28,070 bases of DNA from a virus: positions 1 to 28,070 of the IMG/VR virus record IMGVR_UViG_3300042884_001137; one strand, written 5' to 3'. This document shows positions 11,253 to 28,070 of this stretch, in pieces. How positions within the stretch are numbered: the stretch's first letter is position 1; every line of letters begins with the position of its first letter. Position numbers and translations under genes: made by a program. The notes beneath the pieces were generated by a model, which worked only from the letters and a program-made list of their open reading frames with translations, searched no databases and was not told the DNA's origin.

Positions 11253-11267
11253 TCCGCACCTCCGCAG

Positions 11268-11771: not shown

Positions 11772-11786
11772 AAGGGGCGGCCTCCG

Positions 11787-12208: not shown

Positions 12209-12649
12209 CTATTTTCTTGTGGCCCCTACCCTGTATATGGCACTAAATGTTGAAACCTGGACGTTCTGGTCCATGCTGGACTGGACAAACGGCCCGCCCG
12301 TATTGACTTCCCAATCAACGGTGGAACCGTCCGGCAGGTCCAGGGGGGCGAAAACCAGGTTCCGGATTTGCTGCCGCCAGGCCAGCCAATCAAAATCAAT
12401 GTTCAAATCACGGTTGCACGCCATGTAACAGGCGATGTTCACCCGGTAACCCCAGGTGACTTCGTTGCAAAAAGTTTCCAGGGCCATGTCTTCCCCGCTG
12501 TCATCCGGGGCAATGATCACCAGGGGCAGCGGGTCGCCCTCCACCATCTGGGTGCGGCGGCGTAAACAGACGGTTGGGTTTCCCGCCACGTTGGCCACCA
12601 TCTTGGCTTCCAGGGCCTGGAGAATGTCGCCCCATTCAGAATTCACCAT
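12209..12649 (-). CDS. Tail-terminator / neck protein candidate
   Basis: The 146-residue product is started at ATG 12649 (MVNSEWGDILQALEAKMVAN), with GAGG five bases upstream and the stop of the preceding gene just before it; the open frame further upstream overlaps that gene and is Pro/Arg-rich shadow. Helical N-terminus, then PLPLVIIAPDDSGED, a Cys-containing core (FCNEVTWGYRVNIACYMACN) and a C-terminal strand set (VQVSTFSAIYRVGATRK) recall tail-terminator proteins, which cap the tube and join it to the head. It sits one gene upstream of the tube protein, the expected site. The last codons (SAIYR) coincide with promoter copy 2, so the promoter word is inside coding sequence here. Confidence 0.65.
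   Translation of the reverse strand: MVNSEWGDILQALEAKMVANVAGNPTVCLRRRTQMVEGDPLPLVIIAPDDSGEDMALETFCNEVTWGYRVNIACYMACNRDLNIDFDWLAWRQQIRNLVFAPLDLPDGSTVDWEVNTGGPFVQSSMDQNVQVSTFSAIYRVGATRK
12227..12245 (-). promoter_or_regulatory. Candidate phage late promoter, copy 2 (tail tube)
   Basis: The minus strand reads TAGTGCCATATACA at 12245-12232 followed directly by GGGTA at 12231-12227. It is identical over 14 bases to the copies at 3455-3468 and 25777-25790. The word lies within the last codons of the upstream gene, where it reads AGT-GCC-ATA-TAC, and 37 bases ahead of the major tail protein ATG. Spacing to the start codon is nearly the same as for copy 1 (38 bases). Confidence 0.6.
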
Positions 12650-12656
12650 TTGAACC

Positions 12657-13148
12657 TCACTTGGACCAATAAAGGACGCAGGCGTTACGGTCGCCGTTGG
12701 GGGTGGCGTACAGGATTGCGGGCGCTTGCCCGTCCGGGGTTTTCCCCCAGGCCATGGGGCTCCCGGTCGTGGGCTGGGGCGTTGGCTTCTGGGGTAGCCA
12801 AAGCTGGTACTGGGGTTTGCCGGCTTCCATCTCGCAAACAAGCCGCCACCTGGTTCCCCAGGTTTGTTGGTTGCAAGAGCCGACAAACCATTTTTGCCCG
12901 TATGGGTCAAGAATGTAGCTGTTTATATGGGGGACCAGTCCGTTCAAACGGTTCCGGAATAGGTGCCAGGTGCAATACTGGCGGAAGCCTAGCGCCCCGT
13001 CCCCTAGCTCCACCTGGACGGTGTCCACCTCCTCCTGGAGCCCGGTAGTTACCACGCTCCTCCCATCCGGCAAAAACAAGGTTACATCCTGTTGGTTGTC
13101 GAACAGGTTGTAATCTTCGGAAACGTCTAGGGTAGGTCCCGCCGGCAT
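12657..13148 (-). CDS. Head-tail connector (stopper-type) candidate
   Basis: The 163-residue product starts at ATG 13148 (MPAGPTLDVSEDYNLFDNQQ), with GAGGGG at 8-13 bases upstream. The protein looks beta-rich: DVTLFLPDGRSVVTTG, LDPYGQKWFVGSCNQQTWGT and RWRLVCEMEAG. It shares the position and approximate length of head-tail stopper proteins, which act between the portal ring and the tail terminator. The C-terminal part is rich in Pro and Gly (PTPQPTTGSPMAWG), then a short strand ACVLYWSK. It ends inside the ribosome site of the next gene. I am not certain of the family. Confidence 0.65.
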   Translation of the reverse strand: MPAGPTLDVSEDYNLFDNQQDVTLFLPDGRSVVTTGLQEEVDTVQVELGDGALGFRQYCTWHLFRNRLNGLVPHINSYILDPYGQKWFVGSCNQQTWGTRWRLVCEMEAGKPQYQLWLPQKPTPQPTTGSPMAWGKTPDGQAPAILYATPNGDRNACVLYWSK

Positions 13149-13158
13149 ATCGCACCCC

Positions 13159-13380
13159 TCAAATCACAATGGATCGAATCTCTTGCGGGCAATAGGAGCG
13201 CATGAGTTTGTTCAAACCCTCAAGCTGTTCCAGCATGGCTTTTCGCCAGGCCACCCGGTCCACGCTTTGCCCGCCCACCGAATAGCTCGGGAGCGGGTTT
13301 TTCGAGTCTTCCAGCAGGGCGGCCAGGATGTTGGCTTGCTGCTGTTTGATGTTCTCAAGAATCTCGGCATAGGTCGCCAT
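13159..13380 (-). CDS. Small helical head-completion-like protein
   Basis: The 73-residue product is started at ATG 13380, which shares one base with the TAA of the giant gene (TAATG), so it is translationally coupled. The plan is helix (TYAEILENIKQQQANILAAL), a turn with PLPSYSVGGQSVDRVAW, then a second helix (RKAMLEQLEGLNKLMRSY). Small two-helix proteins with a central S-Y-x-V-G-G type hairpin recall the gpW-type head-completion proteins, and the position upstream of the connector gene fits. The similarity is to general architecture only. The in-frame start further upstream at 13401 overlaps the giant gene and is not preferred. Confidence 0.6.
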   Translation of the reverse strand: MATYAEILENIKQQQANILAALLEDSKNPLPSYSVGGQSVDRVAWRKAMLEQLEGLNKLMRSYCPQEIRSIVI

Positions 13381-16300
13381 TATGCTTCCCTCGTCAACCA
13401 TTCCACCAGGTTGCCAACTGCGGCTTGCCTGGACTCCTGGGCCGCCTTCGGCCGGTAGGTGGTGTTTTCCGGCGTCTTCACTTTGAGAATGTAACCCTGG
13501 TCGAACCGATTCCCGGTGACCTCACTTTTTTCCCGCAAGGAATACAAGGTGGTTTCCTGGGGCCCGCCCATGCGGCGCTTCTGGTCCGCTTCGCTTCGCA
13601 GGGAGTTGAGAACGAACGCCGGAACGTCCTTGACCTCATACATCCCGCCGCCCAGGTTACGGGCCCGCTGGAGCAGACTTTTATAAACCTGGTCCCGCTT
13701 GGCCTCGGGCGTGCCCTTGTAGGCCTTCAGCCTGGCCCGCTCCAGGCCGGCAAGAATCCTTTCCTGGTGCCCCCTGTCCATTTCGGCTTCGGCCTTTTCC
13801 CGCACTTCGGCCGGGTCGTCCTGGATGCCGTAGGCCTGGGGATTCCGCAGGTATTCTTTCATTAACTGATGATGTTGCCGGGCCCGCAGAATGGCCCCTA
13901 GCTTCGTTTCATCGCCAACCTTGAAGGCGTTGCCCCGAAGGTCCCGGGTGTACCAGGGGCCCCGATTGCCGTGCCGGAAAACAGCGTGTTCCGGGTCGTA
14001 GCTGTCCAATCGCTCCTGAGTGACGCCCCGGGTATAGCTGGGCTTTGCGGGCGATTTGCTCACCCGCCCCGTTGGGTCCACCACCTCCCCGGCTTCCACC
14101 TTGGCCCGGTAGTCGGCTTGGGCCTTGGCATAGTCGGCCATGCCGCTATTCAGCCGGTCGGTAAGGGCATCCCTGGACCGCCCCGAAACCCTACCGTTCG
14201 GACTCAGGGGCCCATGGTCTGCGCCTGGGTCCTTGATTTTGTTGGCCTTCAGGTACTGTTCAAAATTCTGGGCAACTGGCGGCGGGGCGCTCGGGCCCTG
14301 GGCGGCGTCAACCTTTTTCAACCTGGACGGGTGAACCACCTTGGTATTCCCGCCTGGCATTTGAATGACGTGGTAACCTTCGTACCCTGGCAGCGTTGAG
14401 GGCCCCTTAATGGTGGCTCTTTCCTCGCCGGTCCCGGTCGGGTTGTTCCAATCGACAACATCGCCGGCCTTGAAGTCGCCGGGCCCGCCTGCCGCCTGGC
14501 CTTCGGGGAAACGCTTGGCCATGATCCGCTTGATGATTTCGTGCCCGTGGGCCATATCGGTGCCCTTCCCGCCAGGGTTGACGCCCAGGGGAACCCCGTG
14601 GTCAGTTGCAATCGACCGCAAGGCCATGTCGCCTTTTCGGTCCATCACGTCCGTTAGAACGCCCTTGAGTTCCTCGGGAGTCTTTGCGCGCTGGGCCCGA
14701 ACGCTGAGAAGGTGGCCCGGGGTGCTGCGGGTGATCGGGCCCCACAAATCATCGAAGTTATCCCGGCGGGCCTTCACCTTGGCCGCAAGGTCTACCAGGG
14801 CTTTGAACCCATCGGGGTTTGCCTTGGCCCAGTCCTCATGGGTGGAAATGAACGCCTGGGTTTTGGCGGCCCAATCGTCCGCCCCCCTGGGGGAATCCGG
14901 GTGGCCTTCATCCAGGCCCTTTTGAACATCCGCCAGGCGCATCATCAACCGTTGAGCGTTCACCGTTGCCTGGTCCGCCCCGGTGATTTCGTTGCGCTCC
15001 TGGTTCCTGTCCACCATCCGCTGGAAGTCCGATTTCGGGGCTTCCGGCTGGGCCCGCTTGGCGTCCTGGTCGGCCAGTTCCTGGCGCACGTCCTCAAGGG
15101 ATCGGACGGGCTCCAGGTCGGCGGCGTTGGCCTTGCCGATATGCTTGCTGCTGTTCGGGTGTTCGACGATGACATTGTCACCGCTACCGTATGCCCGCCC
15201 GATAGTCCCGTCTTTCATCCGGACGATGGAACCGAAGTAGCTGGATTTCTTCGGGGTTTGGGGCTGGGCCGGTTGGGCCGGGGCCTCCTCCTCATCCTTG
15301 GCGGCGTACCGCTCGGCCTGCTCGGCGTAGTGCTGCCGGCGCTTTTCCTTTGCGGCATCGGCCTTCGCCTGGTCCAGTTCCGGATAGTGGTGCAAAAAGT
15401 TCTCCGGAACATCGGTGATCCCGTGTTCCGCCAGGCCCTTTTTGATTTCGTCCAAAAGCATCCTTTTGGAAGACGCCTTATCCTCAGCCCAAAATTTAAG
15501 TTTTTTGTCCTGGACCTCCTGGGCCGCCGCCTCCGCCTTGGCCATTTCCTTTTCGGGCCCTTCAAAGCGCCCTGGAAGGTGCGGGGAACCGTGAGCCTTG
15601 GCCCCAGCCAAAGCCGCCTCATGGGAAAAGCCCTTTGCCCGCAGGGCCTTGAAGGCCTCGCCCTGGTAGTAGTCGTTCACGCCGCTGGGCACATACCCGC
15701 TACGGTCGCCAACGGTCAATTCCCGGTGAATCCTCGCCAGGCGGTCCCCTTCGTTGAATAGCCGCCCGGAAGTCTTTTCCAGCCATGAGGCCTTGTCTTT
15801 TTCCTTCTGCGCCTTGGCCCTTTCGGCGTTGGCGCTTTTCGTCACCTGGGGGAAAATCTTTTCCGCCCCGGCGATCATCTCCGCCTTTGGCTTCCGGGTC
15901 AGGAAATGCAAACCAAGGTTGCGGAGAGTGTTTTCAACCTGCTCTTTGGGCAGCTTTCTGAGGGCGTCCAGGGCGGCGGCGTGGTCGTCCGCTTCCAGGT
16001 GTTCGGCCGGCGTCTTTTGAACAGCCGCCTTGGCCGGTGCCGCCGCCTGGGCGGGCTTGGGTGCGGGTGCCATGCCATCCCCGAACAGGTCGGGGCCTGC
16101 CGCCTGGGCCGGCTTCGCTGGCTCCGCCTGGGGGGCGCTCATCACCTTATCCAGGTCGGGGCTTTCCCCACGGCTCCACGGGGTTGGCGGCTTGGACGGT
16201 CCTTCGGCCGGGGCGTTGAACACGCCATCCAGGTCGGGGTTTTCCCGGTCGGCTTTCGCCTGGGCGGGCTTCGCCTGGGGGGCCGGTTCGGAATTGAACA

Positions 16301-19300
16301 CGTCATCCAGGTCTTGGTTTGCCCTGTCGCCGGTCGGCTGGGCCGCCTGGGCCTGGGGCGCTGGGGCCGGCTCGGCTTCCGCCTGGGGCTTGGCCTTTGC
16401 GCCAGGGATGCCCCAATAGTTCAAAACATGATCCGGAACATCCTGGCCATCCTGGATGGCTTTGCGAATGGCGTTGTAGCTGTTGTTCAGGGCAATCGAG
16501 GTGTCCCGGCGCTTTCCTGGCGGCAGCTTGGAATAGGCGGCATCAATCTCGGGATTATCCAGGGGGTGGCCGTAGTCGCCCCTCAAAAACGCCGGTTCGT
16601 CGTATTTGCCCTGGAGGGATTCCCCATGCCTTTTGAGCATATCCACCAGGGGCCCGGTATCCCCGGACAACTCGCCGGCCACCAGTTCCATCGGCGTCAG
16701 GTGGTGCGCCCCCAAGCCTAGCTTGTCCTCATACTGCTTCCTGGCGGTGGCTGCCGTTTTCATCCCCTGGTTTTCGTAGCCCTTCCAGGTGCCGGCGTAC
16801 TCGTACCCGGCCCCCTTGGCGGCATCGTCAAGCGCCTGGATTGTCCGGTCAATGGCGTCGATCTTGCGCCGCACGCCGGCCATGGAAGCGGGATCCTCCT
16901 GGTCGCTCGGCTTGACGCCCAGACTCGTTTGAAGGCGGTATTTCTCCTTCTCAAGCTGATCCCGTTTCCACTTGGCGTTCAGGTGGAGAAACTTCCCGGA
17001 CTCATCGTGCTGGTTGGCTACAGTCCGCTGAATGTCCTCCTGGTCCTGGCCCTTGATCGTGCGCCCGGTCAGATTGTGCATTACCTGGCGGAGTTGATGG
17101 CTGTTCAAATCGTCGGGGTTCTCATCCATCAGCTTCGCCAGGGCGGCGGAAACCTTGGCGTACTCTTTGTGCGCCTGGGCCTTCAGGCTGGGGCTCTTTT
17201 GGGTGTACCCGTTGGCGATCACCTTCAGCCGGCCCGCCAGCTTGGTCATGCGGGTGGCCGGCGGTAGGGCGCTGTCATCGACCTGGGGCGGTGGCGTGGG
17301 CTCCGCTGGCCTGGGGGTAGGCGTGCCCTGGAAGTGCTGCCGCAGACTGACGGGAACCTCCATGCTTCCATCAATGCCATGCTGATAGGCTTCCGGGCTG
17401 AGTTCCTTCAGTTGCTGGGCGTACTGGCCGGCCTTGCTCGGGCTGTCTTGCATGAAGGAAATAGCCGCCCGCAGCTTTTTATCTGGGTGGCCGGCCTGGT
17501 CCAGGGAAGACTTGAACGGGTCGAACGCTTCCGCCTGGGCCTTTTCCGTCTGGGGCTCGGGCTCACCCACCGCAGGCGCTTCGGCAGGGCCGGCCGCCTG
17601 CATTTTGTCGATATGAGGCTGCCAGCGTTGCTTCAGGCTGTCCATCCTGAACTCGGGTGTCCCCATCTGGATTTTTCGGCGGGCCCGGATTTTCTCCGCA
17701 TTCTCAGGAGTCACCTGGATAGCCTTGCGGCTTGCCCCGCCTAGCTGGTGGTCTGACGCCGCCAGTTCCCGCAACCAATCCAGGCGCTTTTGGGCGTGTT
17801 CGGCAATGGTCGGGTCCATGGCCCCGGCCGTGTTGTACAACTCGTCATGCAACTCGGCGGCCTTGTTGTGGTTGAACCTGGCGTTAGCGCCCTTGCCGGT
17901 GATCACCTTGGCCAAGAGCCCGCCGTACTGGTTCACCCTGGCCCCAGATGGCAGCTTGTCTTCGCCGCCCAATTCGCCTGGGGGAGTTTCCCGCATGGCC
18001 ATGCGTAACATCCGGAAATTTGGCGTCTCGCCGCCGTCCAGGTAATCGTCCTGGCCCATTTTCTCCGGGGGCGTGAGTTCAAAACGGCCAGTTTTCAAAC
18101 CCTTTTCCCATTCCCGGGCGGCCAGGGGCGTTCGGACCGTGCCGGACTTGCTGACAGTCGGGAAGGCGGGTTTACCCGTGCTTGCCGCCTGGGGCACTTC
18201 CGCCTGGGGCGCTGGTGCCGGCGTAGGTTCTGCCGCCAACGGAACGGGGGCGGGCGGTGCGGAGGAAGCCTGTTCCCCCGCCCCGCTGGCCGGCAGATTC
18301 GCAAGTTTTTTACGGGTGTTCCAGAGTTGCAGCCGAATCCGGTTATAGTCCCGGGAATTCTTCGGCATACCGGCCAAAACAGAGGATAGGCGGCCGATCT
18401 CGTCTTCGATTGACTGACGCCCCGCCTTGGTCAGGCTGGGGCGCTTGGCCCTTTTCCCGGGGGCTTCCGGGGCGATTACTGGCGGGGCGCTTGGGCCTTC
18501 TTGATTTCCTCCGACAGCCTGGGCCACATTTGGGCTTTCTGGCGCAGTTCCACCAGGGCTTGCCGCTGCCGGTCGTTCATCGGCTCCTGGCCCCGTAGCG
18601 CCTCCTCCAGTTGATCCAGGTTGAAGCTGTCCAACCTCATCTGGCGATCCGCCGATAAGCCCGGCTGCGTGGTCACGGGAAATTTGGCCGGATCGGTATA
18701 GATCGAGGATTCCATTTTTAGCCCTCTTTTTCAGTTCTTCCGGGTCGTGAACCTGGCTTCCAAGGTATTCTATCTGTTCTTTCGGGTCTTGAATGTCTTT
18801 TGCAAGACCTTTTCCTAAATTGTTGTTGTAAACCGTTATGGGCTTACCGGATGCGGCCATCTCTTTTGCCGCCTCTAGTGCGGCTTTCCTGGCCTTTATG
18901 TTCGCATCCATGGCGTAATTCAAATCGACGGGCCGGCCCTTCTCGGGCTCGGGGCCCTGCTTGCCGCCGTCTTCCCAGGCCTTGTACTCCTTCGCCCCTT
19001 CCAGGAAACGGGGCACAATGCCCTTTTCCCAGGCGTCCCAGGGGTGACGGTCCACGAAGTGGAATTCGGGTTCAAAACCGGCCTGGCGGGCCTGGTCCAT
19101 GGCGGCTTTCGCCCCGTATGGCCCATCCCATTCGGCGCTCACCTGGTCCAGAATGAGCGGGTAATCGGTCATCTGCATTTGTTTGGAAACGGCGGTGGTT
19201 TTCCCGGAGCCTCCGCCGCCGGCCATGATGGCCATTTTGCCGTTACCCACGCCCTTGAGTTCGTGCTTGAGTTCGTGCAGCAAGCGGGCGTTGAGGTAGT

Positions 19301-22300
19301 TGGCGGCGGTGTGGTTGACGTGCTGATTCAGGCCGGTATACCCCGGCATGAAATCCCGCCAATCGTCGATATTCAAATTGGCGTGCGTCAGCTTTCCATT
19401 CGCATCAAAAGCGCCCTTTTTCTGCAAATACTTGTGCCGCAAGTCCTCATAGTTGTCCCTGGCGTAGGCCTGGAATTCGGCTTCCTGTTGTTTTTCCTCG
19501 GGCGTGAGGCCACCCATCGACCAGAACTTATACCCGGTCGCCTGGTGGAACTCGGGGATTTCCTTGGACGGTTGCCAGGTGCCGGCCTTGGGCTGCCCGG
19601 GGGCGCTGGCCTGGGGTTGTTGCGCCAGGTCTTCCCCCTGCCCCTGGGTGCGCCCGTCCCGCAGGGATTCGCTAGGCTCCCGCTTGGGTTTTTCCGCCTG
19701 GTACGGATCGCCTTCATGGGCGTTCCGGAATTCATCCAGGGCCCGAACCTCACCATGCGCCTTGGCTGCCCTGGCCTTGGCGATTTGTGCCCGGCTCTTG
19801 AGGTAATCGCTAGCCCGCTTTTTGGCGAACTGCTCGTTTCGGCCGAAGTCCATTTCCTTCCCGGTTTCCGGGTCGGTCAATTTGAACACGCCGTTTGCAT
19901 CCTTCTGGGGCAGGGTGCTTTGGGCGTTGAGGATCTTTTTCAATCCGTCGATATGTTTGCCGTATTCCTCAACGGCCTTGTTAATGCGTTCGTCGTGTTC
20001 CTTTTGGCTGGCCGGAACCTTGAAACCACGGGGCGGTTTGTAATCGGGGTTGGCGAACTTTTTGGCCGCCTTCGCCTCCACCTTCTCCACGCCCTTGTTT
20101 GCAGCCGCAAGCGCCGCCTCATTCTCCGGGGCAAGCTCATGCTCACCCAAGCCAACTTCCTGGAACCCGTCCAGGGTGTCGGCGTCCATCAGCCCATCTT
20201 TGTTCCTGGCCCCCTTCAGGGCCACGAAGTGATTCCCCTCGGTGTCCATGCGGACCTTCAAGAGGCCCTCATCTTCCAGGGATCGGCGCGCCTCCCCGCC
20301 AACGATGGCGTCCAAGTCCTTCTTGGTCATCCAGCCCTTATGGTCCTTGAGGGCCCTGAGCGCCATTTCCTTGGCCTGGGCCGGGTCGCCCTGGAATTGG
20401 GGCCCGGAGTTCTTGGACATTCCCAAGGCGTCATCCACCACGCTGCCGCTATCGTCCAGGGCGGGCGGCGCTGCGGGCGCTTCATCCTTCGGGACCGGCA
20501 GGTTGCCGGGAGAGAACAGGCTGCCGAACATTTCCCCGGTGCCGTCCGTTTTGGCCTGCTGTTTCTGGTCCAGCCAGTCCAAACCTTTCGCCGCCTGGTC
20601 GGATACCGTCTCCTGGGGGGCCTGCTTTTCGGCGTCCACGGCAACCTTATTGCCGAACAGGTCCGTCATCATCTCGGGGCCGGCAAAGTTCCTTTTCACC
20701 GGGTTGCCGAACAGGTCCAGGCCCGGGGGCGGTGCCGGGGTGGCCCCGGTGCCCTCGGCCTCGGTGCGGTCCACCTGGCTGAAGGCGGGCCCGTTATTCA
20801 ACTCGGCGGAATCGAGCTTACGCCCCACGCCTTCAACGTCATCCAGGCCCCTTTGGTCGGCCGGTGCCGCCTTTTCCGGCTCCGGTGCGGGTGCCGGGTC
20901 GTCAAACCCAAACATGGAAGGAGTCTGGTCATTGCCCTTGTCGCTGAAGGTCTTTTCCAGGTCGGCGTCCATTTCCTCCTGGGACCGCAGGGGCTCGGGC
21001 ACCGTGCGCCCCTCGGGCGGGGCGTCCGGCATTTGAACAAGCTGGCCCTCATTCGGATCCTTGCCGAATATCTGCGCCACCAGGTCGGGATGAACGGCCC
21101 AGTTTTTCCACCGCTCCACTTCGCCCTGGAGTCGGGAAACCTCACTCTTGACCGCCTCGGGATCGTCCACATTGATGCCCATTTCCCGGGCAATGTCGGG
21201 GCGCTTGGCTGCCCCCTGGGCGGCGGTGATCCTGGCGGCCAGGGCCCGGCGGATGCCGCCGGCCTTGCTGGCGTTTTCGGCCATCTCCTTGATGGCGCTG
21301 TCATCGTTGCCGAACAGTTCGCCTTGATCCTGGTCCGCCTTGCGCCTGGCGCTCAACGCCTTGTACGCCTGAAGGTAATCCCCGATGGTTTCGGCGGACT
21401 TGTTTTCCCCGGCCAGCTTCAATCCCAGGGGCTGGAGCTTTTCGTCGTTCGGGGCATGGCGGGCAATGGCTGCCGCCTGCTTGTCGTTGATCGCCTTCCC
21501 CTTGAGGGCGGCCAGAAGGGTTTCGGTCGCCCCCTGGGCAATGTCCCAACCGTCCTTGCCCTTGGCCCTGGCCAGGAGCCCTTTCATCTGGGCCTGGTCC
21601 TTGGTCAGGCCCTTGTTCGATTGGAAGTAGCTGGCGTAGTCGGCCACGCTACCGTTTCCGTCTCTGATGTTCAGTTCGGCATCCAGGGCCTTGGCCTGTT
21701 CCAGGCTGAACCCATCGGCCTCCCGGTAAACCTGGACGGGCACTTCCCCCACGCCGTTACGCTTGGCATGGGCCAGGCGGTGGCGTCCGGAAATAACCTC
21801 CATCGTCCCGTCTTTGCCTTCCCATATCTGAAGGGGCCCGCTTCCCCGGTGGTCGTAATGGCCCTCCAGGGGCTCCACTTCGCCGGTCGCCTCATCTGCG
21901 CCCGCCTTGAACTGCTTCACCCGGGCCTGGGCCAGAATCTTGTTCGGGTCCATGTAGGTGATGCGGGGGGCGGCGGTTTCCCTGGCGTTGGCCTTGGACG
22001 GGTTGACGGGGGCGTCCGGAACGTGGAAGCCCTTGGACCGAAGGAATTCCCGGGCCTGGTTGATCTTCTCCTGGTCGGCCTCGGGCCCCTCCTGGTAGGC
22101 GTTGCGCTTCGCCGGCTCGGGCGGAGTCTCGGGGCGAACAGCCGGCGGGGTGGATGGGCCCCCCTGGGCGGATTTCTTGCCGCTGTCCAGGTTGTTCAAA
22201 TTCTTGCCGGTGAGTTCAGCCGGGCCCTTGGAAATGTCACCAGCCTTGTTGATGAAAACATGGACGCCATTGTCCAGGGTGACCCAACGGCCGTTGGGAT

Positions 22301-22376
22301 CATCCTTCTCGGCGGTCTGCTCCAGGACCCGCCGTAATGCCGCCCGTGCCATCTCAACATGGTTTTTGCTGGTCAT
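13380..22376 (-). CDS. Giant polyvalent protein with ParB-like and zeta-toxin-like domains
   Basis: The product is about 2,998 residues from ATG 22376 (MTSKNHVEMARAALRRVL), with GGGTGG just upstream; an earlier start at 22511 lies before the terminator and is rejected. A first small domain (residues 28-60) reads RWVTLDNGVHVFINKAGDIS. A ParB/sulfiredoxin-like nuclease domain spans about 138-245, with its signature GRHRLAHAKRNG at 197-208. A P-loop kinase domain of zeta-toxin type spans about 990-1215, with Walker A GGGGSGKTT at 1053-1061. Two SH3-like segments lie near 2,380-2,425 and 2,633-2,688. Long Pro/Ala/Gln linkers separate the domains, and DLFGN-type and PDLDxVF-type short motifs recur. 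Large multi-domain 'polyvalent' proteins of phages are thought to enter the host with the DNA and act against host functions. The location between capsid and neck genes fits a virion-borne protein. Residues 1,221-1,300 overlap another frame (18476-18715). Confidence 0.85.
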   Translation of the reverse strand: MTSKNHVEMARAALRRVLEQTAEKDDPNGRWVTLDNGVHVFINKAGDISKGPAELTGKNLNNLDSGKKSAQGGPSTPPAVRPETPPEPAKRNAYQEGPEADQEKINQAREFLRSKGFHVPDAPVNPSKANARETAAPRITYMDPNKILAQARVKQFKAGADEATGEVEPLEGHYDHRGSGPLQIWEGKDGTMEVISGRHRLAHAKRNGVGEVPVQVYREADGFSLEQAKALDAELNIRDGNGSVADYASYFQSNKGLTKDQAQMKGLLARAKGKDGWDIAQGATETLLAALKGKAINDKQAAAIARHAPNDEKLQPLGLKLAGENKSAETIGDYLQAYKALSARRKADQDQGELFGNDDSAIKEMAENASKAGGIRRALAARITAAQGAAKRPDIAREMGINVDDPEAVKSEVSRLQGEVERWKNWAVHPDLVAQIFGKDPNEGQLVQMPDAPPEGRTVPEPLRSQEEMDADLEKTFSDKGNDQTPSMFGFDDPAPAPEPEKAAPADQRGLDDVEGVGRKLDSAELNNGPAFSQVDRTEAEGTGATPAPPPGLDLFGNPVKRNFAGPEMMTDLFGNKVAVDAEKQAPQETVSDQAAKGLDWLDQKQQAKTDGTGEMFGSLFSPGNLPVPKDEAPAAPPALDDSGSVVDDALGMSKNSGPQFQGDPAQAKEMALRALKDHKGWMTKKDLDAIVGGEARRSLEDEGLLKVRMDTEGNHFVALKGARNKDGLMDADTLDGFQEVGLGEHELAPENEAALAAANKGVEKVEAKAAKKFANPDYKPPRGFKVPASQKEHDERINKAVEEYGKHIDGLKKILNAQSTLPQKDANGVFKLTDPETGKEMDFGRNEQFAKKRASDYLKSRAQIAKARAAKAHGEVRALDEFRNAHEGDPYQAEKPKREPSESLRDGRTQGQGEDLAQQPQASAPGQPKAGTWQPSKEIPEFHQATGYKFWSMGGLTPEEKQQEAEFQAYARDNYEDLRHKYLQKKGAFDANGKLTHANLNIDDWRDFMPGYTGLNQHVNHTAANYLNARLLHELKHELKGVGNGKMAIMAGGGGSGKTTAVSKQMQMTDYPLILDQVSAEWDGPYGAKAAMDQARQAGFEPEFHFVDRHPWDAWEKGIVPRFLEGAKEYKAWEDGGKQGPEPEKGRPVDLNYAMDANIKARKAALEAAKEMAASGKPITVYNNNLGKGLAKDIQDPKEQIEYLGSQVHDPEELKKRAKNGILDLYRSGQISRDHAAGLIGGSPDEVGQLQPGSTGGGATGPGADERPAAASPGGTAPESPNVAQAVGGNQEGPSAPPVIAPEAPGKRAKRPSLTKAGRQSIEDEIGRLSSVLAGMPKNSRDYNRIRLQLWNTRKKLANLPASGAGEQASSAPPAPVPLAAEPTPAPAPQAEVPQAASTGKPAFPTVSKSGTVRTPLAAREWEKGLKTGRFELTPPEKMGQDDYLDGGETPNFRMLRMAMRETPPGELGGEDKLPSGARVNQYGGLLAKVITGKGANARFNHNKAAELHDELYNTAGAMDPTIAEHAQKRLDWLRELAASDHQLGGASRKAIQVTPENAEKIRARRKIQMGTPEFRMDSLKQRWQPHIDKMQAAGPAEAPAVGEPEPQTEKAQAEAFDPFKSSLDQAGHPDKKLRAAISFMQDSPSKAGQYAQQLKELSPEAYQHGIDGSMEVPVSLRQHFQGTPTPRPAEPTPPPQVDDSALPPATRMTKLAGRLKVIANGYTQKSPSLKAQAHKEYAKVSAALAKLMDENPDDLNSHQLRQVMHNLTGRTIKGQDQEDIQRTVANQHDESGKFLHLNAKWKRDQLEKEKYRLQTSLGVKPSDQEDPASMAGVRRKIDAIDRTIQALDDAAKGAGYEYAGTWKGYENQGMKTAATARKQYEDKLGLGAHHLTPMELVAGELSGDTGPLVDMLKRHGESLQGKYDEPAFLRGDYGHPLDNPEIDAAYSKLPPGKRRDTSIALNNSYNAIRKAIQDGQDVPDHVLNYWGIPGAKAKPQAEAEPAPAPQAQAAQPTGDRANQDLDDVFNSEPAPQAKPAQAKADRENPDLDGVFNAPAEGPSKPPTPWSRGESPDLDKVMSAPQAEPAKPAQAAGPDLFGDGMAPAPKPAQAAAPAKAAVQKTPAEHLEADDHAAALDALRKLPKEQVENTLRNLGLHFLTRKPKAEMIAGAEKIFPQVTKSANAERAKAQKEKDKASWLEKTSGRLFNEGDRLARIHRELTVGDRSGYVPSGVNDYYQGEAFKALRAKGFSHEAALAGAKAHGSPHLPGRFEGPEKEMAKAEAAAQEVQDKKLKFWAEDKASSKRMLLDEIKKGLAEHGITDVPENFLHHYPELDQAKADAAKEKRRQHYAEQAERYAAKDEEEAPAQPAQPQTPKKSSYFGSIVRMKDGTIGRAYGSGDNVIVEHPNSSKHIGKANAADLEPVRSLEDVRQELADQDAKRAQPEAPKSDFQRMVDRNQERNEITGADQATVNAQRLMMRLADVQKGLDEGHPDSPRGADDWAAKTQAFISTHEDWAKANPDGFKALVDLAAKVKARRDNFDDLWGPITRSTPGHLLSVRAQRAKTPEELKGVLTDVMDRKGDMALRSIATDHGVPLGVNPGGKGTDMAHGHEIIKRIMAKRFPEGQAAGGPGDFKAGDVVDWNNPTGTGEERATIKGPSTLPGYEGYHVIQMPGGNTKVVHPSRLKKVDAAQGPSAPPPVAQNFEQYLKANKIKDPGADHGPLSPNGRVSGRSRDALTDRLNSGMADYAKAQADYRAKVEAGEVVDPTGRVSKSPAKPSYTRGVTQERLDSYDPEHAVFRHGNRGPWYTRDLRGNAFKVGDETKLGAILRARQHHQLMKEYLRNPQAYGIQDDPAEVREKAEAEMDRGHQERILAGLERARLKAYKGTPEAKRDQVYKSLLQRARNLGGGMYEVKDVPAFVLNSLRSEADQKRRMGGPQETTLYSLREKSEVTGNRFDQGYILKVKTPENTTYRPKAAQESRQAAVGNLVEWLTREA
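18476..18715 (-). CDS. Nested gene in another frame of the giant gene
   Basis: A 79-residue frame begins at ATG 18715 and ends at TAA 18476-18478, in the +1 frame relative to the giant gene. It has a plausible ribosome site, AAGAGGGCTAAAAATG. The product (MESSIYTDPAKFPVTTQPGL, then a charged helical region EEALRGQEPMNDRQRQALVE and RLSEEIKKAQAPRQ) looks like a real folded protein, whereas the giant frame here encodes a low-complexity linker (GSTGGGATGPGADERP). By hand count the third codon position is about 79% G or C in the nested frame and about 40% in the giant frame, so the nested frame has the local codon style. It may be an independent protein or the remnant of a gene over which the giant frame was fused. 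Function unknown. Confidence 0.6.
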   Translation of the reverse strand: MESSIYTDPAKFPVTTQPGLSADRQMRLDSFNLDQLEEALRGQEPMNDRQRQALVELRQKAQMWPRLSEEIKKAQAPRQ

Positions 22377-22396
22377 ATTCCACCCATCCTGGAAAG

Positions 22397-22431
22397 AAAA
22401 AACCCCGCCAACGGGTAGACCGTGGGCGGGG
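22397..22431 (-). terminator. Intrinsic terminator after the capsid genes
   Basis: On the minus strand the stem CCCCGCC pairs with GGCGGGG; inside it ACGG pairs with CCGT around a small loop, and TTTTTT follows at once. This is a textbook rho-independent terminator. It lies 24 bases after the stop of the gene at 22456-22713 and only 20 bases before the ATG of the giant gene. It should end most transcripts from the capsid block, leaving the giant gene to read-through or antitermination. Confidence 0.88.
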
Positions 22432-22455
22432 CAAATGTCACCTAGCCTGGCCGGC

Positions 22456-22713
22456 TCACCCCTGGTCGGCCTCGGCTTCCGGCTCGGCTTCGATATGTTC
22501 AAACACTTCAAACTCCTGGCTGGACATGATCACGCCCGCCAGGCGCTTGTACCCCTCCACCGCTTCCGCCTGGGAAGGCGCTGAAATGATGTAGGTGACG
22601 GCTGGGGTAGGTAACCCAACCTTGAACAGTCTGCCGCCACTCCCAACCACCAGGTCCGGCTTAACCTCGGGCCTGGCTTGTTCTGGTTTGGGTGCCGCCG
22701 CTTTCTTCGCCAT
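22456..22713 (-). CDS. Small Lys/Ala- and Pro-rich protein, unknown
   Basis: The 85-residue product is started at ATG 22713 (MAKKAAAPKPEQARPEVKPD) because GGAGG lies 8 bases upstream; an earlier GTG at 22728 and ATG at 22719 are less well placed. The N-terminal 25 residues are basic and Pro/Ala-rich, probably disordered. A small alpha-beta segment follows (VGSGGRLFKVGLPTPAVTYI, then SQAEAVEGYKRLAGVIMSSQ), and the tail is acidic (FEHIEAEPEAEADQG). It lies between capsid and terminator, a site where some phages place head-completion or decoration proteins. The segment TYIISAPSQAEAVEGYKRLA resembles short domains found in many phage hypothetical proteins. No function is assigned. Confidence 0.7.
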   Translation of the reverse strand: MAKKAAAPKPEQARPEVKPDLVVGSGGRLFKVGLPTPAVTYIISAPSQAEAVEGYKRLAGVIMSSQEFEVFEHIEAEPEAEADQG

Positions 22714-22875: not shown

Positions 22876-24063
22876 TCAGGCGTCCTCGCTGGTGGCGTAA
22901 ACCACATAGCGGGGATCGGTGATGCCGGCCACGCCCATGTAAGACGCCTTAACGGCCAAAACTATGTCGTTGTGGAAATCCAGCGGGTTGTTCGCCGGGG
23001 CCTCAACAACCTGGAGGGGCTTCGCTTCCCTCCAGCAGAACGCCTTTTTGAAGTCGCCCAGGATGACAATGTCATTCGCCTGCTCGGGCGTCTTGCCGGC
23101 CTCGTTGGTCATCATGCGGTAGGCGTTGGCCGTGGACATGATGGCGTAGGTGCGATCCAGCGGGTTGGGGCTCACCTCGGTGATGGGCAGGCCGGTATCG
23201 GCAAACCCTGGAACAGTCTGGCGCACCTCGGTGGCGTGCAAGATGTTCTTGGCGGTGTACCTGGTGGCAGGCATCACCAGCATATCTTTCGGCTCAACCA
23301 TGATCGGCTTACGCAAAACCGGATCAAGGATGTTCACGAACATTTGTTCCAGCGTGTTGATGCTGGTCCAGTCCGTCAGCTTGAACCCGGTGAGCTTGTT
23401 CACCCAGTTTCCGCTGGTGTTGTAGGTCTGGTAAACGGACCCGTTCCAGTTGTGGGTGTTCACCAGGCCATAGACCACCCGCAAGATCGACTCTTCACGG
23501 GTCAGGCCCAGGATGGTTGCCACAGACTTGGCCGAATCCAGGATTTGGCCGGTCAGGTCTGAGAAGATGGCTTCCATCGTCACGGAGCAAATACGCCCGA
23601 TCTTTTCGACCGATGGGTATTTGATGTACTGACCTTTGAAGGAGGTCTGGGGGTAGGGCATACCCTGTTGAACAATGTCGCCCATATCGACAACATCGGA
23701 CAGGTAGGGCACGGTCTGCTCACCCAGGTTCCCGTTCGTGACGGGAATGGTGGTGGTCAGGGTGTCGCCCAGCCAGGAAACCAGCTTGTACTTTTCCCGG
23801 ATCTCATTCACCAGCAACTGGCCGGTAATGTCCTGGAAACCGCTGGTATCAACGGCCTCGGCGCTTTCAGTCACCCGCCCGGAGCGAACGGCCCGGGTAA
23901 GGTGTTCGGCCCATCCGCTGCCCATGTAGGACTCAGCCAGGCGGCGCAGGCTGATCCGCCTGGGATCAACCTTCCTTTCCCGGATGGCCTCGGTAAGGAC
24001 CTTGGCGGTAGTTGCCCGCCCGTGGGACTCGGTAATTTTCTTGAGCTTGAGTTCAAAAGACAT
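22876..24063 (-). CDS. Major capsid protein (HK97-type fold expected)
   Basis: The 395-residue product starts at ATG 24063 with GGAGA about 10 bases upstream. It follows protease and decoration genes, the standard order. The N-terminal ~75 residues are charged and helical (ATTAKVLTEAIRERKVDPRR, RRLAESYMGSGWAEHLTRAV), as in capsid proteins with a delta domain or long N-arm. The core has features of this class: DITGQLLVNEIREKYKLVSW, YIKYPSVEKIGRICSVTMEA, a VEPKDMLVMPATRYTAKNIL segment and a C-terminal domain ending DPRYVVYATSEDA. It should be the most abundant virion protein and sits in the first operon downstream of promoter copy 3. Assignment by length, order and general look; close relatives not named. 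Confidence 0.85.
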   Translation of the reverse strand: MSFELKLKKITESHGRATTAKVLTEAIRERKVDPRRISLRRLAESYMGSGWAEHLTRAVRSGRVTESAEAVDTSGFQDITGQLLVNEIREKYKLVSWLGDTLTTTIPVTNGNLGEQTVPYLSDVVDMGDIVQQGMPYPQTSFKGQYIKYPSVEKIGRICSVTMEAIFSDLTGQILDSAKSVATILGLTREESILRVVYGLVNTHNWNGSVYQTYNTSGNWVNKLTGFKLTDWTSINTLEQMFVNILDPVLRKPIMVEPKDMLVMPATRYTAKNILHATEVRQTVPGFADTGLPITEVSPNPLDRTYAIMSTANAYRMMTNEAGKTPEQANDIVILGDFKKAFCWREAKPLQVVEAPANNPLDFHNDIVLAVKASYMGVAGITDPRYVVYATSEDA

Positions 24064-24101: not shown

Positions 24102-24584
24102 TCACTTGGCCGACAGAAGGCCCAGGTTCTGGGAAACCAACCGAATGCGAACGTGGGTTTCGGTGGCGGGCTTTTCCAGCACGCAGTACCCAACGGCGGT
24201 GGTGGCATCGGCGGCGATCACCACTTCCTGGGTGGCAACCTTGCCGTCCACCAGCTTGAAACCAAGCAGTTGGCCGGTGTTCACCGCCACGGCGCAGGGG
24301 ATTTCCCAAATGCCATCGGTGTCGATCCGAACCCGGTTCTTCCGGGAGTTGCCCCGGATTTGCTCCACCCCGGCCGCCTTGGCCTGGCCTGAAATCCCCG
24401 CAAAGACTGCGGCGGCTTCCGCCTCGGTGGCGAAGTTGGAAACGGGCACCACTTCCCCGGAAGCGGCGTCGATTCCCACCAGGTCGCCAATCTTGAGGGC
24501 GGTATCGGTGGCAACCTTGGAGTCCACGGGCCAGGTTTCCCCGGTGATGAAACGGGTTTCGGGGGTCAATGCGGTCTGGGGCAT
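24102..24584 (-). CDS. Capsid decoration-like protein
   Basis: The 160-residue product starts at ATG 24584, preceded by GGAG about 9 bases upstream. It lies between protease and major capsid protein, where decoration or cement proteins are found in many siphophages. The sequence has a short N-terminal arm (MPQTALTPETRFITGETWPV). It then has a beta domain with the segments KIGDLVGIDAASGEVVPVSN, AVFAGISGQAKAAG, IWEIPCAVAVNTGQLLGFKL and AVGYCVLEKPATETHVRIRL. This layout (ALKIGDLVG, then V.AG.A...A, then G......A..V..G, then G.......G..VRV.L) is like the DUF2190-type capsid decoration proteins. It would bind the outside of the capsid after expansion. The family match is from memory. Confidence 0.75.
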   Translation of the reverse strand: MPQTALTPETRFITGETWPVDSKVATDTALKIGDLVGIDAASGEVVPVSNFATEAEAAAVFAGISGQAKAAGVEQIRGNSRKNRVRIDTDGIWEIPCAVAVNTGQLLGFKLVDGKVATQEVVIAADATTAVGYCVLEKPATETHVRIRLVSQNLGLLSAK

Positions 24585-24589
24585 CGGTC

Positions 24590-25771
24590 TTACTCCGTCA
24601 GGGATTTAACAAGGGCGGAAATGTCGTTCTGAGCCACGGGGCCCGTACTACGGGGGCGGCTTTCCCGGACCAGAATTCGGCGCTGGTCGCTGATGATCTT
24701 GTTCCAACTGGCCTTGTTGCTGGACGCCAGGTGGTTGATGAGACTTTCGGTGATGGCATAGCCTGGCAGCTTGGCTTTGTGGGCCGCCGCCTTCGCTTCC
24801 AGCACCGTTTTCCGCCGGCTTTCCCGGATAATCATGCGGTCCAGTTTGGACAACAGGGCGTGATAATACGGGTCGTTGGTTGCCCGCAGGGCCTCTTCGG
24901 CCTTCATCGCCATGGCCTCTTCGTCGCCATCGGGCTCGGGCATTGCGCCCATGTCGCCTTCCAGGCCCTCCATGCCACCAGGAGCGGGAAGGCCCATGGC
25001 GGTGGCGATGGCTGCCAGCTTTTCGTCTGCGCTCATGGCGGGATCGGCCAGGATGCCGGCCACGGCATCGGCTCCGCCACCATCGGCTGGCGCAGCGGGG
25101 GGCAATCCGGCCCCCAGGTCGCCGCCCATCATGTCGCCGCCCATATCGCCACCCAGGCCGGCCAGGTCGCCGCCCAGGTCGCCGCCCATGTCGGGCGGGG
25201 GCATATCTCCGCCCATGTCAGGCGGCGGGAGTTCTTCGTCGATATTGTTCAAACCCATTGGGGCGGACTCCTGGACACGTTGCAGACTTTCCAGCAGGCC
25301 GGTAGTGGTCGCCGGGTCTGCCACCAAATCAACGCTTTCAACCCGGAAAATCTCCGCCACCCGGTCAGGGTTGCCGAAGTTTCCTTCCACGATCTTGGCC
25401 TCTGCGTTGTGGCTCAAACCAACGGCCCTGGGATCGTTGGTGGCCCACCAGCGGAAAGACTCAGCCAGGGGATGGTGGGGGTTAAATGTCAGGTCGCCGT
25501 ACAGCCCATCGGCCCTGGCCCGTACATTTGCCAGGCGTCCGAAACGCTCGTTGTACTGGCGATCCATCTGGCCCTTTTTGGGATGGTCCAGATTCACGGG
25601 GGCCCCTTCGTAAAGGTGCGCCGCCTTTTGGATCACTTGGATCGGGTATTCCCTACCGTTCCTGGACTTGGTGCCCAGGATCTTTACCCCTTCGACCAGG
25701 CAACCGTTCTTCACGGGGCCCTTATCCAGGGGGCGGTAGGAATCTTCCAGAAGGTTGACGATACGTTCCAT
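24590..25771 (-). CDS. Prohead protease with C-terminal scaffold-like region
   Basis: The 393-residue product is started at ATG 25771 (MERIVNLLEDSYRPLDKGPV); a TTG at 25798 would put the upstream gene's stop and the promoter inside the coding region and is rejected. Residues 1-165 match the herpesvirus/T4-gp21-like prohead protease type: KSRNGREYP near 35-43, VNLDHP at 59-64, VGLSHNAEAK at 117-126 and VDLVADPAT at 147-155. His63 and Ser120 are the best catalytic candidates. Residues 180-220 are MGGD/LGGD repeats with PPPDMGGD, and the rest to about 290 is Gly/Asp/Ala-rich. The C-terminal 100 residues are basic and helical. This suggests a protease-scaffold fusion that is self-cleaved in head maturation. 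The proposed promoter lies only five bases before the ATG. Confidence 0.85.
   Translation of the reverse strand: MERIVNLLEDSYRPLDKGPVKNGCLVEGVKILGTKSRNGREYPIQVIQKAAHLYEGAPVNLDHPKKGQMDRQYNERFGRLANVRARADGLYGDLTFNPHHPLAESFRWWATNDPRAVGLSHNAEAKIVEGNFGNPDRVAEIFRVESVDLVADPATTTGLLESLQRVQESAPMGLNNIDEELPPPDMGGDMPPPDMGGDLGGDLAGLGGDMGGDMMGGDLGAGLPPAAPADGGGADAVAGILADPAMSADEKLAAIATAMGLPAPGGMEGLEGDMGAMPEPDGDEEAMAMKAEEALRATNDPYYHALLSKLDRMIIRESRRKTVLEAKAAAHKAKLPGYAITESLINHLASSNKASWNKIISDQRRILVRESRPRSTGPVAQNDISALVKSLTE
25112..25228 (-). repeat. MGGD/LGGD-coding short repeat
   Basis: Within the protease gene the plus-strand word 'gtcgccgcccat' and variants recur about ten times at short spacing. They encode PPPDMGGD twice and then a series of MGGD, LGGD and GGDL units. 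The block is acidic and flexible and forms the link between protease and the C-terminal helical part. Unit number may vary between relatives. Confidence 0.75.
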
Positions 25772-25790
25772 ACCCGTGTATATGGCACTA
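25771..25790 (-). promoter_or_regulatory. Candidate phage late promoter, copy 3 (capsid operon)
   Basis: The minus strand reads TAGTGCCATATACA at 25790-25777, then C and GGGTA, whose last A is the A of the protease ATG. Its first three bases are the TAG stop of the sigma-like gene. The word is identical to the copies ahead of the tail-tube gene and the fibre cassette. Because only five bases separate it from the ATG, transcripts from it would be leaderless or nearly so for the protease, but normal for the decoration and capsid genes. Confidence 0.6.
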
Positions 25791-26348
25791 GTTTTCAAAA
25801 ACTATGAACCAGGCGATAGCGTCCCCCAGGATTTGGAGAACGTCCCCGATCAACATCCCTTGAAGGCGTGCGATCTTGGACGCCTTGAAACCGTTGAACA
25901 CGGCCATTTCAACCACGTCTGAAACGTGTTCGGGCTTGTCCGCCAGGTAGCTGGAAAGGGCTTCGCCGCCGCCTTCCTTCTCCACCAGTCCGGAAAAGAA
26001 TTCGTCGGAGGGGTTTACCCCGGAGTCTTCAAAGTGCTTTTGCCAGGTCCTGGCGCTTCCCCAGACCATGCGGGAAATGTGGCCCCTGGCGAACAGCGCG
26101 CAATAGGTGCAAAGGTTGGAACCCTTGCCTGGGTCCCACTTCCTTTTTCCATGAAAGAACCCAAGCCACCCTGTTTGAACAATGTCCTCCAGGGGGATTC
26201 GTTTACCCTGGGCTTTCGCCCGGCGGTATGCAGCGGTGGCCAGGTTCAGGATTAGGCCACGGTATTCCTCATAGGCCTGTTCATCCGTCAGCACCCGGAT
26301 ACGGGGGCTTTTCCGGGCTTTCTTCCGTTTGGGCGCTTTCGCCACCAT
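25788..26348 (-). CDS. Sigma-70-like RNA polymerase sigma factor
   Basis: The 186-residue product is started at ATG 26348 (MVAKAPKRKKARKSPRIRVL), with AAGGGG about 8 bases upstream; it overlaps the portal C-terminus by 68 bases. After a basic N-terminus, residues about 30-100 show sigma region 2. The pieces are YRGLILNLATAAYRRAKAQ, then IPLEDIVQTGWLGFFHGKRK, then WDPGKGSNLCTYCALFARGH, where the usual pattern is 'LEDLVQEGxLGLLxAxxKFDPxxGxxFxTYAxxxIRGxI'. The C-terminal part (DVVEMAVFNGFKASKIARLQ, then GMLIGDVLQILGDAI) resembles a region 4 helix-turn-helix. The protein lacks room for a full region 1 and 3, as in small phage or ECF-like sigma factors. I infer it redirects host RNA polymerase to the three TAGTGCCATATACA sites. 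A position inside the head module is unusual. Confidence 0.78.
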   Translation of the reverse strand: MVAKAPKRKKARKSPRIRVLTDEQAYEEYRGLILNLATAAYRRAKAQGKRIPLEDIVQTGWLGFFHGKRKWDPGKGSNLCTYCALFARGHISRMVWGSARTWQKHFEDSGVNPSDEFFSGLVEKEGGGEALSSYLADKPEHVSDVVEMAVFNGFKASKIARLQGMLIGDVLQILGDAIAWFIVFEN

Positions 26349-27867
26349 CCACCACCCCTTGGGGCGGCTTTCCACCAGGCGCAGGGCCCTGGGGCAATCC
26401 GCCTTGGCCTGGGGGGGCTAGCGGGTTGTTCATTTGCTCTTTTTGCTGCTTCTGGCGCTCCTGGTCTATCTGCGCCTGTTCCTTTTTGTCATCGACGCCA
26501 ATGTCGGCCCGGACGGTGGCCAGGCTGATGGCACCCATGTCCATATAGGCTTTGTGCGTGTTCGCCTCAGCCGCCTTGTCACGGGCCTGGATGGTGGGCG
26601 GCAAAACCTGGATGGAAATCTGTTGAAGCAAATCGGGATCAATCAAACCCATTTCGGCGGCGTGGGAAAGCTGCTTCCAGGCTAGCGCCCTTTCGGGCCT
26701 GGTGCGCCTGGTGCCCAGGGCCCCCATCAGCATATTTTGGAACCGTTCAAATGACTTGGTGGCCGGGGCCTCCGCCGTCAAGCTGCTAGCGTAGTTCGCC
26801 CCGCCGGCATCGGCGCTCATCATAATTTCTGACAAACCGAACCGTCCGGCAATCGCCCGCAGATTCACTTTCAGGATTTCAATCAAGTCATTCGCACCCG
26901 CCGCCAGGCTGGGGAATTCGTATTTCACGTTACCGCTGGCGGTCAAAACCGTACCGTAGCCGAACCGTTCCACGGTCTGCTGGCGTCCGGTCCATTTGTC
27001 GGTGATGGAGCCATCGCCGGCAGACTTGACCAGTTCTTCCACGGCCTGGGGCGGGGCGTCATCGACGGTGCGAATCATGCCGATCTTTGCCCGGGTTTTC
27101 GCCAGGGCGATCATGCTGGCAAGCACGTCCTCAGCCGCCCGGAGGTTGGTTTCAACGGCCATGATGGTCGGCAAGCCCCGCTTGGAGTTGCTTTCCACGT
27201 TGTTCCGCAGGTGGATGATTTCTTCCGCTGGCACCAGTTCGGGGGTTAGGCTGATCCAGGGCCTTTCGATCACCCAATACCCAATGCGCTCTTGCATATC
27301 CTCGGGGTGGCATTTGATGCCGAAGGAATCTTCGGGGCTGGCGCTGGTGTCGCTGGGGGCCCGGATTAGCTCGGGCTCAATGAACCGGATTTGAATGATG
27401 CCGTTTTCCCCTGGGAACACTCGTAAGAATGCTTCCCCCTCAACGTGGAGCCGGTAGACGATTTCCGCTTCCACTTCGGATAGCCGGTTATGTTCAACGA
27501 ACAGGTCTAGAATGTCCTGGACTTGCTCCAAAACCTGGTCCGACAAGCCACGTTCCCGCCTGGCCACCGCCTTGTATTTGAACCCGGTGCCCACCACATA
27601 GGCTTTGCAGGCGTTCAATGCGGCGATGGCATATTCGTTGTTCCTGGCGATCATCCGGCAGCGGTCCCGGATCTGCTTCAGTTGAAACCAGTTGATGGCA
27701 ACGGGGAGGATTTCACCCGTAAGGCGGTTGTCACGGCGTGCCAGGGCTGGCCCTGCGGCATCAGCGAAACCATACGGTCCGATTTCGCTGAAGTAATCCC
27801 GGGGATCTGCCCACCCGCTGGAATCCGGGAAAAGCTGGCCGCCCGAAATGCTGTCCATGCTGCTCAT
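26281..27867 (-). CDS. Portal protein (lambda type)
   Basis: The 528-residue product is started at ATG 27867 (MSSMDSISGGQLFPDSSGWA), two bases after the terminase stop; an upstream in-frame start overlaps the terminase gene and is rejected. Signs of the lambda-type portal family are the N-terminal NWFQLKQIRDRCRMIARNNE and YAIAALNACKAYVVGTGF, the segment LHVEGEAFLRVFPGENGIIQ, then VPAEEIIHLRNNVESNSKRG with LPTIMAVETNLRAAEDVLAS. Near residue 345-395 come RAIAGRFGLSEIMMSADAGG and ANYASSLTAEAP, and a helical C-terminal part follows (AHEAD-like region, QIDQERQKQQKEQMN). The final ~40 residues are Pro/Gly-rich. It forms the dodecameric ring for DNA passage and the site of terminase docking. Its 3' end is overlapped by the sigma-like gene. 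Confidence 0.88.
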   Translation of the reverse strand: MSSMDSISGGQLFPDSSGWADPRDYFSEIGPYGFADAAGPALARRDNRLTGEILPVAINWFQLKQIRDRCRMIARNNEYAIAALNACKAYVVGTGFKYKAVARRERGLSDQVLEQVQDILDLFVEHNRLSEVEAEIVYRLHVEGEAFLRVFPGENGIIQIRFIEPELIRAPSDTSASPEDSFGIKCHPEDMQERIGYWVIERPWISLTPELVPAEEIIHLRNNVESNSKRGLPTIMAVETNLRAAEDVLASMIALAKTRAKIGMIRTVDDAPPQAVEELVKSAGDGSITDKWTGRQQTVERFGYGTVLTASGNVKYEFPSLAAGANDLIEILKVNLRAIAGRFGLSEIMMSADAGGANYASSLTAEAPATKSFERFQNMLMGALGTRRTRPERALAWKQLSHAAEMGLIDPDLLQQISIQVLPPTIQARDKAAEANTHKAYMDMGAISLATVRADIGVDDKKEQAQIDQERQKQQKEQMNNPLAPPGQGGLPQGPAPGGKPPQGVVDGGESAQTEESPEKPPYPGADG

Positions 27868-27869
27868 TG

Positions 27870-28070
27870 TCACATTCTCCCGGTAACGCTTTCGACCCAC
27901 CCGGAACCCTTCAGCATACAAGCCAGATTGAAGCTATCCGCCAGGTCGGGGGATGCCCGGAGGCGCTTTTTAGTGCTGGCCTTGGCTTCCACTACTCGCC
28001 TTTGCAGGGCGTCCAGGGTGAAGACTGGCTGGCGGAGTTCGCCCATGAGTTGGGCCCGAATATCTTCCGG
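27870..28070 (-). CDS. Large terminase subunit, C-terminal end (partial)
   Basis: The last 66 codons are in the window, ending at TGA 27870-27872. The piece RRVVEAKASTKKRLRASPDL followed by ADSFNLACMLKG matches the end of large terminase nuclease domains, in which a basic helix is followed by 'SPDxADAxxLA'; the Asp of PDLAD belongs to the nuclease active-site region in that family. Its place immediately before the portal gene is standard. The ATPase and most of the nuclease domain lie outside the window, so packaging type cannot be told. Confidence 0.75.
   Translation of the reverse strand, partial: PEDIRAQLMGELRQPVFTLDALQRRVVEAKASTKKRLRASPDLADSFNLACMLKGSGWVESVTGRM

Follow-up and report, generated by a model that had tools for sequence, protein, structure and literature searches.

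A phage represented by a 28,070-nt stretch of IMG/VR record IMGVR_UViG_3300042884_001137 (the whole stretch is called the window here) very probably starts its late transcription with a sigma factor of its own, acting at single-element promoters that include the promoter of its own operon and so forming a positive-feedback late switch. The start signal would be a 14-nt word, TAGTGCCATATACA, and to judge from sequence comparison with related phages its reader is almost certainly the phage's own sigma factor. The initial annotation had proposed a phage sigma factor with a dedicated late regulon, and this is still the best reading: the sigma factor is detected by HMM, its homologues are syntenic in related phages, and an equivalent word stands before their late genes at fixed distances from start codons. 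The features of the window that bear on this reading are the following.

26281 to 27921 (start codon not refined), minus strand: portal protein, upstream of and overlapping the sigma factor gene (Pfam Phage_portal_2, E = 5.8e-25)
25788 to 26348, minus strand: sigma factor gene (186-amino-acid product), with region 2 at about residues 22 to 96 and a helical, region-4-like C-terminal half
25777 to 25790, minus strand: predicted late promoter 1, an exact copy of TAGTGCCATATACA before the protease gene; its TAG is the stop codon of the sigma factor gene
25771 to 25775, minus strand: GGGTA, predicted discriminator and +1 A, the latter being the A of the protease ATG
24590 to 25771, minus strand: prohead protease-like gene, first after promoter 1 (PHROG 29592, function unknown, E = 1.8e-9; weak match to PHROG 15531, head maturation protease, E = 0.008; gene order)
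24102 to 24584, minus strand: decoration/cement-like protein (Pfam Phage_cement_2, E = 3.7e-4, below the curated cutoff)
22876 to 24063, minus strand: major capsid protein (Pfam Phage_capsid_4, E = 2.7e-11)
12232 to 12245, minus strand: predicted late promoter 2, an exact copy followed by GGGTA at 12227 to 12231, before the tail-tube-like gene
11787 to 12194, minus strand: putative tail-tube-like protein, first gene after promoter 2, assigned through a chain of homology and itself matching no family
3455 to 3468, minus strand: predicted late promoter 3, an exact copy followed by A and GGGTA at 3449 to 3453, before the fiber block
2799 to 3416, minus strand: open reading frame (ORF) in the fiber region, first gene after promoter 3, matching no family

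The sigma factor and its family

By homology, the product of 25788 to 26348 is a genuine sigma-70 region-2 protein. Its match to Pfam Sigma70_r2 (E = 1.6e-6) exceeds the curated cutoff and it also matches PHROG 351, "RNA polymerase sigma factor", in agreement with the region 2 recognized in the initial annotation. Sigma70_r2 is present in all 12 of the homologues that we collected, and a profile built from these 12 matched FliA, RpoS, and SigA in the PDB with E values from 3e-15 to about 1e-13. The AlphaFold model of the window protein (pLDDT of 79 overall, above 90 over residues 21 to 70 and lower beyond) contains a confidently predicted sigma-2 domain, its C-terminal half is helical, and its top match among the solved structures of the PDB is sigma-28. 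The region-4-like end that had also been proposed fares less evenly. No Pfam HMM detects region 4 in the window protein, and Sigma70_r4 is found in 2 of the 12 homologues with E values of up to 0.1 (best 2.4e-4); however, the C-terminal half is modeled as helical, and the homologue in G012 is modeled with a four-helix C-terminal domain in a structure that matches sigma factors, sigma-32 first.

A tblastn search of 50,697 phage records (E of 0.01) with the window sigma factor and its G007 homologue returned no kin from cultured phages, and the nearest cultured terminases are only about 26% identical. On these two grounds we file the sigma factors, as far as their sequences tell, as a new family without cultured members. 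Three genome matches (L056 to L058) were rejected as bacterial or prophage relatives; their sequences resemble common sigma factors of bacteria or pieces of such proteins, and the word is missing from their neighborhoods.

A recurrent word before late genes

As the initial annotation had it, the window holds exactly three copies of TAGTGCCATATACA, each on the minus (coding) strand, and GGGTA follows them after 1, 0, and 1 base (promoters 3, 2, and 1, respectively). No further match with up to three mismatches exists in the whole window, and an exact-word scan of IMG/VR returned sister contigs of the window phage only. The blocks of genes after the copies are of the kinds claimed, i.e., protease, tail tube, and fibers. 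The tail-tube-like gene is homologous (27% identity) to the gene at 30282 to 30644 of G007, which is in turn homologous to the gene at 12546 to 12953 of G012, a weak match to major tail protein (E of 0.015 to 0.02). In the fiber block, the gene at 986 to 2143, downstream of the ORF at 2799 to 3416, has tail fiber PHROG matches. Between the capsid and tail genes lies a minus-strand ORF of 3,043 amino acids (13380 to 22511), exceptionally long for a phage genome of about 45 kb, with no Pfam match and with partial homologues of 760 to 2,298 amino acids in relatives.

The sister contig G003, which is 99.6% identical to the window phage over a 10.4-kb overlap, reaches 17 kb further upstream and contains a fourth site, TGGTGCCAAATACA. 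This site lies directly after a strong terminator-like hairpin and ahead of the operon with the packaging genes, portal, and sigma factor; it also occurs in G004, an independent contig. It differs from the other three sites at two positions and carries GCCAAATA instead of GCCATATA. In the resulting composite of about 45 kb, GCCATATA has three coding-strand copies and a single copy on the opposite strand, and GTCATTTA, the corresponding word of most relatives, is absent. Only three to four sites are known in the window phage. Because the fourth copy opens the operon that contains the sigma factor gene, the sigma factor probably feeds back on its own synthesis. Two other genes of this upstream region (G003, L013) deserve mention: one at 10889 to 11866, immediately before the terminator that separates it from the late operon, encodes a DUF932 protein (Pfam E = 1e-36; PHROG 1221), and one at 12948 to 13859 in the packaging operon, with no Pfam or PHROG match, resembles by eye a papain-like cysteine peptidase.

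Searches with the portal, capsid, sigma factor, and terminase gathered about 10 further lineages. The terminases of the sigma-carrying relatives are 42 to 74% identical to that of the window phage, and their sigma factors are 21 to 33% identical to the window protein in the alignment (34% in one separate comparison). The mapped relatives share the order terminase, portal, sigma, and protease, usually followed by decoration and capsid genes, and a sigma homologue sits at the portal-protease junction in every one of them. At the sigma-protease junction, most relatives carry TGTCATTTA where the window phage has TGCCATATA; in relatives the position of promoter 1 is occupied by TGTCATTTA(C/T), and promoter 1 aligns without gaps with TGTCATTTATAAGGGCATG of G011. 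Relatives have an equivalent word both at the start of the homologous protease gene and in the vicinity of the tail tube. The junction lacks the word in G016 and in the L075 lineage, and L084, a locus with a distant terminase, has neither sigma factor nor word.

The statistics of the word in relatives are far from random expectation. Eight dereplicated genomes (253 kb) contain 44 copies of GTCATTTA on the coding strand and 1 on the opposite strand versus 2.86 expected under a second-order Markov model (Poisson P of about 3e-36 for enrichment and P of about 3e-12 for strand bias), and among all 8-mers with at least eight copies in these genomes GTCATTTA has the highest ratio of observed to expected counts. 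Sense/antisense counts on whole contigs, without dereplication, are 8/0, 8/1, 4/0, 6/0, 7/0, 7/0, and 6/1. The words are largely exclusive to their lineages, other words being found 0 to 2 times per strand elsewhere. Against the promoter reading, a small number of GTCATTTA copies in relatives are intragenic. Scattering of copies over random positions or strands, named in the initial annotation as counting against a regulon, is seen neither in the window phage nor in its relatives. We found no open-access paper that links GTCATTTA to a phage. In four lineages, a GTCATTTA copy lies within a coding region shortly before the tail-tube gene (positions 30144 of G007, 18473 of G009, 35692 of G015, and 26754 of G017 on reoriented contigs); this conserved copy may be a true internal promoter or may partly reflect coding constraint.

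Predicted promoter anatomy and start sites

The consensus of the aligned sites is (G/T)GTCATTTA(T/C)(T/A). Upstream of it, the aligned sites contain no position of high information and no k-mer clearly beyond the null that could represent a -35 element; by this alignment, the word stands alone as a -10-like element, with no -35. Two-element sigma-70 promoters were also considered and were no more frequent than chance in the window and G003.

Counted from the first base of the word, the first start codons fall into two classes, 13 to 15 nt without a Shine-Dalgarno sequence or 24 to 30 nt with one. The first class holds 16 of 66 sites, and random positions give 2% for 13 to 15 nt and 4% for 24 to 30 nt; the 66 sites include near-identical relatives, so P values for these classes overstate independence. 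The protease ATG lies 13 to 15 nt from the word, without a Shine-Dalgarno sequence, in ten lineages including the window phage, and the same class holds a second gene, portal, in G012, G014, and G020. In G020, the sigma factor gene and the next site are about 490 nt apart, and the site still lies 14 nt before the following ATG. At promoters 2 and 3 of the window, GCCATATA begins 47 and 48 nt upstream of the ATG, respectively, without a clear Shine-Dalgarno sequence.

Based on these two classes, transcription is predicted to start 13 to 15 nt from the first base of the word, on the A of GGGTA in the window phage, and a leaderless mRNA is expected for the protease. GGGTA is then probably the discriminator together with the initiating A. 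A start at this distance fits the 6- to 8-bp spacing of phiEco32 gp36 promoters (PMC8948821).

In the mechanism that we propose, the small sigma factor, composed of sigma-2 and a divergent sigma-4-like end, would take over the host RNA polymerase core and direct it to a -10-like box without a -35, which would be (T)GCCATATAC in the window phage and GTCATTTA(T/C) or ATCATTTA in relatives. Transcription would begin 13 to 15 nt from the first G/A of the box. The boxes would front the packaging operon that includes the sigma factor gene, the protease/capsid block, the tail tube, and the fibers, such that the sigma factor, once made, would drive its own operon along with the virion genes as a positive-feedback late switch. 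The first sigma molecules could come from weak read-through of the terminator or from a host-type promoter, both of which are possible.

Evolution of the word and the sigma factor

Terminase large subunit (TerL) and portal trees place the window phage next to G011 and within the lineages that use GTCATTTA (portal support of 100/99, TerL weaker). Since both trees nest the window phage among GTCATTTA users, GCCATATA is, by phylogeny, derived, and all sites of the window lineage changed together from GTCATTTA, with GCCAAATA at the fourth. A second clade uses ATCATTTA, represented by G021 and, at single sites, by L075, L079, and L080. Around region 2.3/2.4, the sigma factor reads LFARGHISR in the window phage, mostly LWVRGA or LWVKGS in the GTCATTTA phages, and AWIWG(A/S) in the ATCATTTA phages. 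These differences in word and sigma factor fit coevolution; the independent changes are few, and common descent alone could give such covariation. We lean, with some reserve, toward a history in which a minimal sigma factor and a -10-only promoter of about 9 bp coevolved in a family without cultured members, every site of a genome being rewritten in concert on at least two occasions (GTCATTTA to GCCATATA and GTCATTTA/ATCATTTA) and the predicted leaderless protease mRNA being kept throughout. If true, the family would offer a natural series from which to learn how residues of sigma region 2 determine promoter specificity.

Alternative explanations

The word could be a real promoter element that is read by a host alternative sigma factor or an unrecognized phage factor, with the phage sigma factor serving other genes. 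Motif statistics do not identify the reader of a motif, and the first sigma molecules must in any case originate from another promoter. We nevertheless regard this as unlikely: sigma factor and word co-occur in all mapped relatives and are both missing from L084, the lineage with the altered word is also altered in region 2.3/2.4 (LFARGH in place of LWVRGA/LWVKGS), and the genes tested include no other transcription factor by family match and no recognized phage RNA polymerase.

Considerably less probable is a nonpromoter element such as an RNA processing site, a translation enhancer, or the operator of a regulator. The strand bias and closeness to start codons would suit an RNA element as well, but a protease ATG only 13 to 15 nt from the word and without a Shine-Dalgarno sequence, a fourth site immediately behind a terminator-like hairpin, where transcription has to begin anew, the lack of a palindrome, and a change of word that tracks a sigma gene all argue for a promoter.

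The initial annotation called the triple 14-mer very unlikely to arise by chance, which holds with the relatives in view and is too strong for copy number alone. Words of at least 14 nt in three copies were reached in 2 of 150 order-3 Markov sequences, and the window has a second triple word, the 15-mer TGGGCGGCGACCTGG (25114 to 25188, minus strand), which is a local coding repeat inside the protease gene. Shuffles and Markov simulation are thus insufficient to exclude chance; copy number is moderate evidence, and the decisive evidence is comparative. The probability of chance or shared coding constraint is negligible, since the three words stand at the starts of blocks whose contexts are unrelated and relatives have an equivalent word where the homologous protease gene starts and close to the tail tube.

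Comparison with known sigma factors

The reading of a phage-encoded sigma factor acting at single-element late promoters has precedents. In SPO1, the phage sigma factors gp28 and gp33-34 redirect host polymerase to phage-specific promoters, which are two-element and belong to a middle/late cascade. The role proposed here is the same, and the search of phage records revealed no relation in sequence.

The closest parallel is phiEco32 gp36, a small middle/late sigma factor whose tAATGTAtA promoters have a single element and no -35, with transcription starting 6 to 8 bp after the element; its sites precede virion gene blocks, and the related phage 7-11 has a different motif at similar genome positions (PMC8948821). 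The window phage likewise combines a small sigma factor with one conserved element before late genes, no -35, and sites before virion blocks. However, the element of phiEco32 has another sequence and gp36 lacks region-4 homology, whereas relatives of the window phage keep a sigma-4-like end. phiEco32 also uses gp79, of which no equivalent is known in the window phage. No sequence kinship with gp36 was found by tblastn of phage records, the sole basis of that comparison.

Less close is T4 gp55, also a very small, diverged sigma-2 protein that serves a single-box late promoter, the T4 box being TATAAATA. In T4, sigma-2 and sigma-4 functions are split over gp55 and gp33, and the gp45 sliding clamp is needed (PMC2988020). 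In contrast, a single protein of the window phage combines both sigma halves, and it is not known to depend on a clamp. Among bacterial proteins, the group-3 sigma factors (FliA/sigma-28 and RpoH/sigma-32) are the best profile and fold matches of the phage family. The -10 box of sigma-32, of the CCCCATnT type, resembles GCCATATA/GTCATTTA. Group-3 sigma factors use a -35 and have region 3, whereas the phage protein lacks the length for a complete region 3, and no -35 was found.

Only a small number of phage sigma factors have target words that are known, and all of them belong to isolated, cultured phages. About 10 lineages of one uncultured family would add matching pairs of sigma factor and promoter that cover three types of word, with sites that can be recognized in the sequence by itself and with exactly predicted starts of transcription, permitting direct tests of joint change in sigma and promoter specificity and of leaderless late virion mRNAs. 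The word and its start-codon spacing also provide a simple rule for marking late operons in uncultured phages.

A second over-represented word

A different word, TTTGAACA, is also strongly over-represented, with 8 + 9 copies in the window and 14 + 7 in G003 versus about 0.15 expected per strand. Copies within genes number 15 in the window and 12 in G003 versus about 1 after synonymous codon shuffling. The word is nearly absent from the main relatives and has 3 + 4 copies in the L075 lineage. We rejected it as a second promoter since it is found on both strands and mostly within genes; it looks like a dispersed host-type word involved in uptake, recombination, or architecture.
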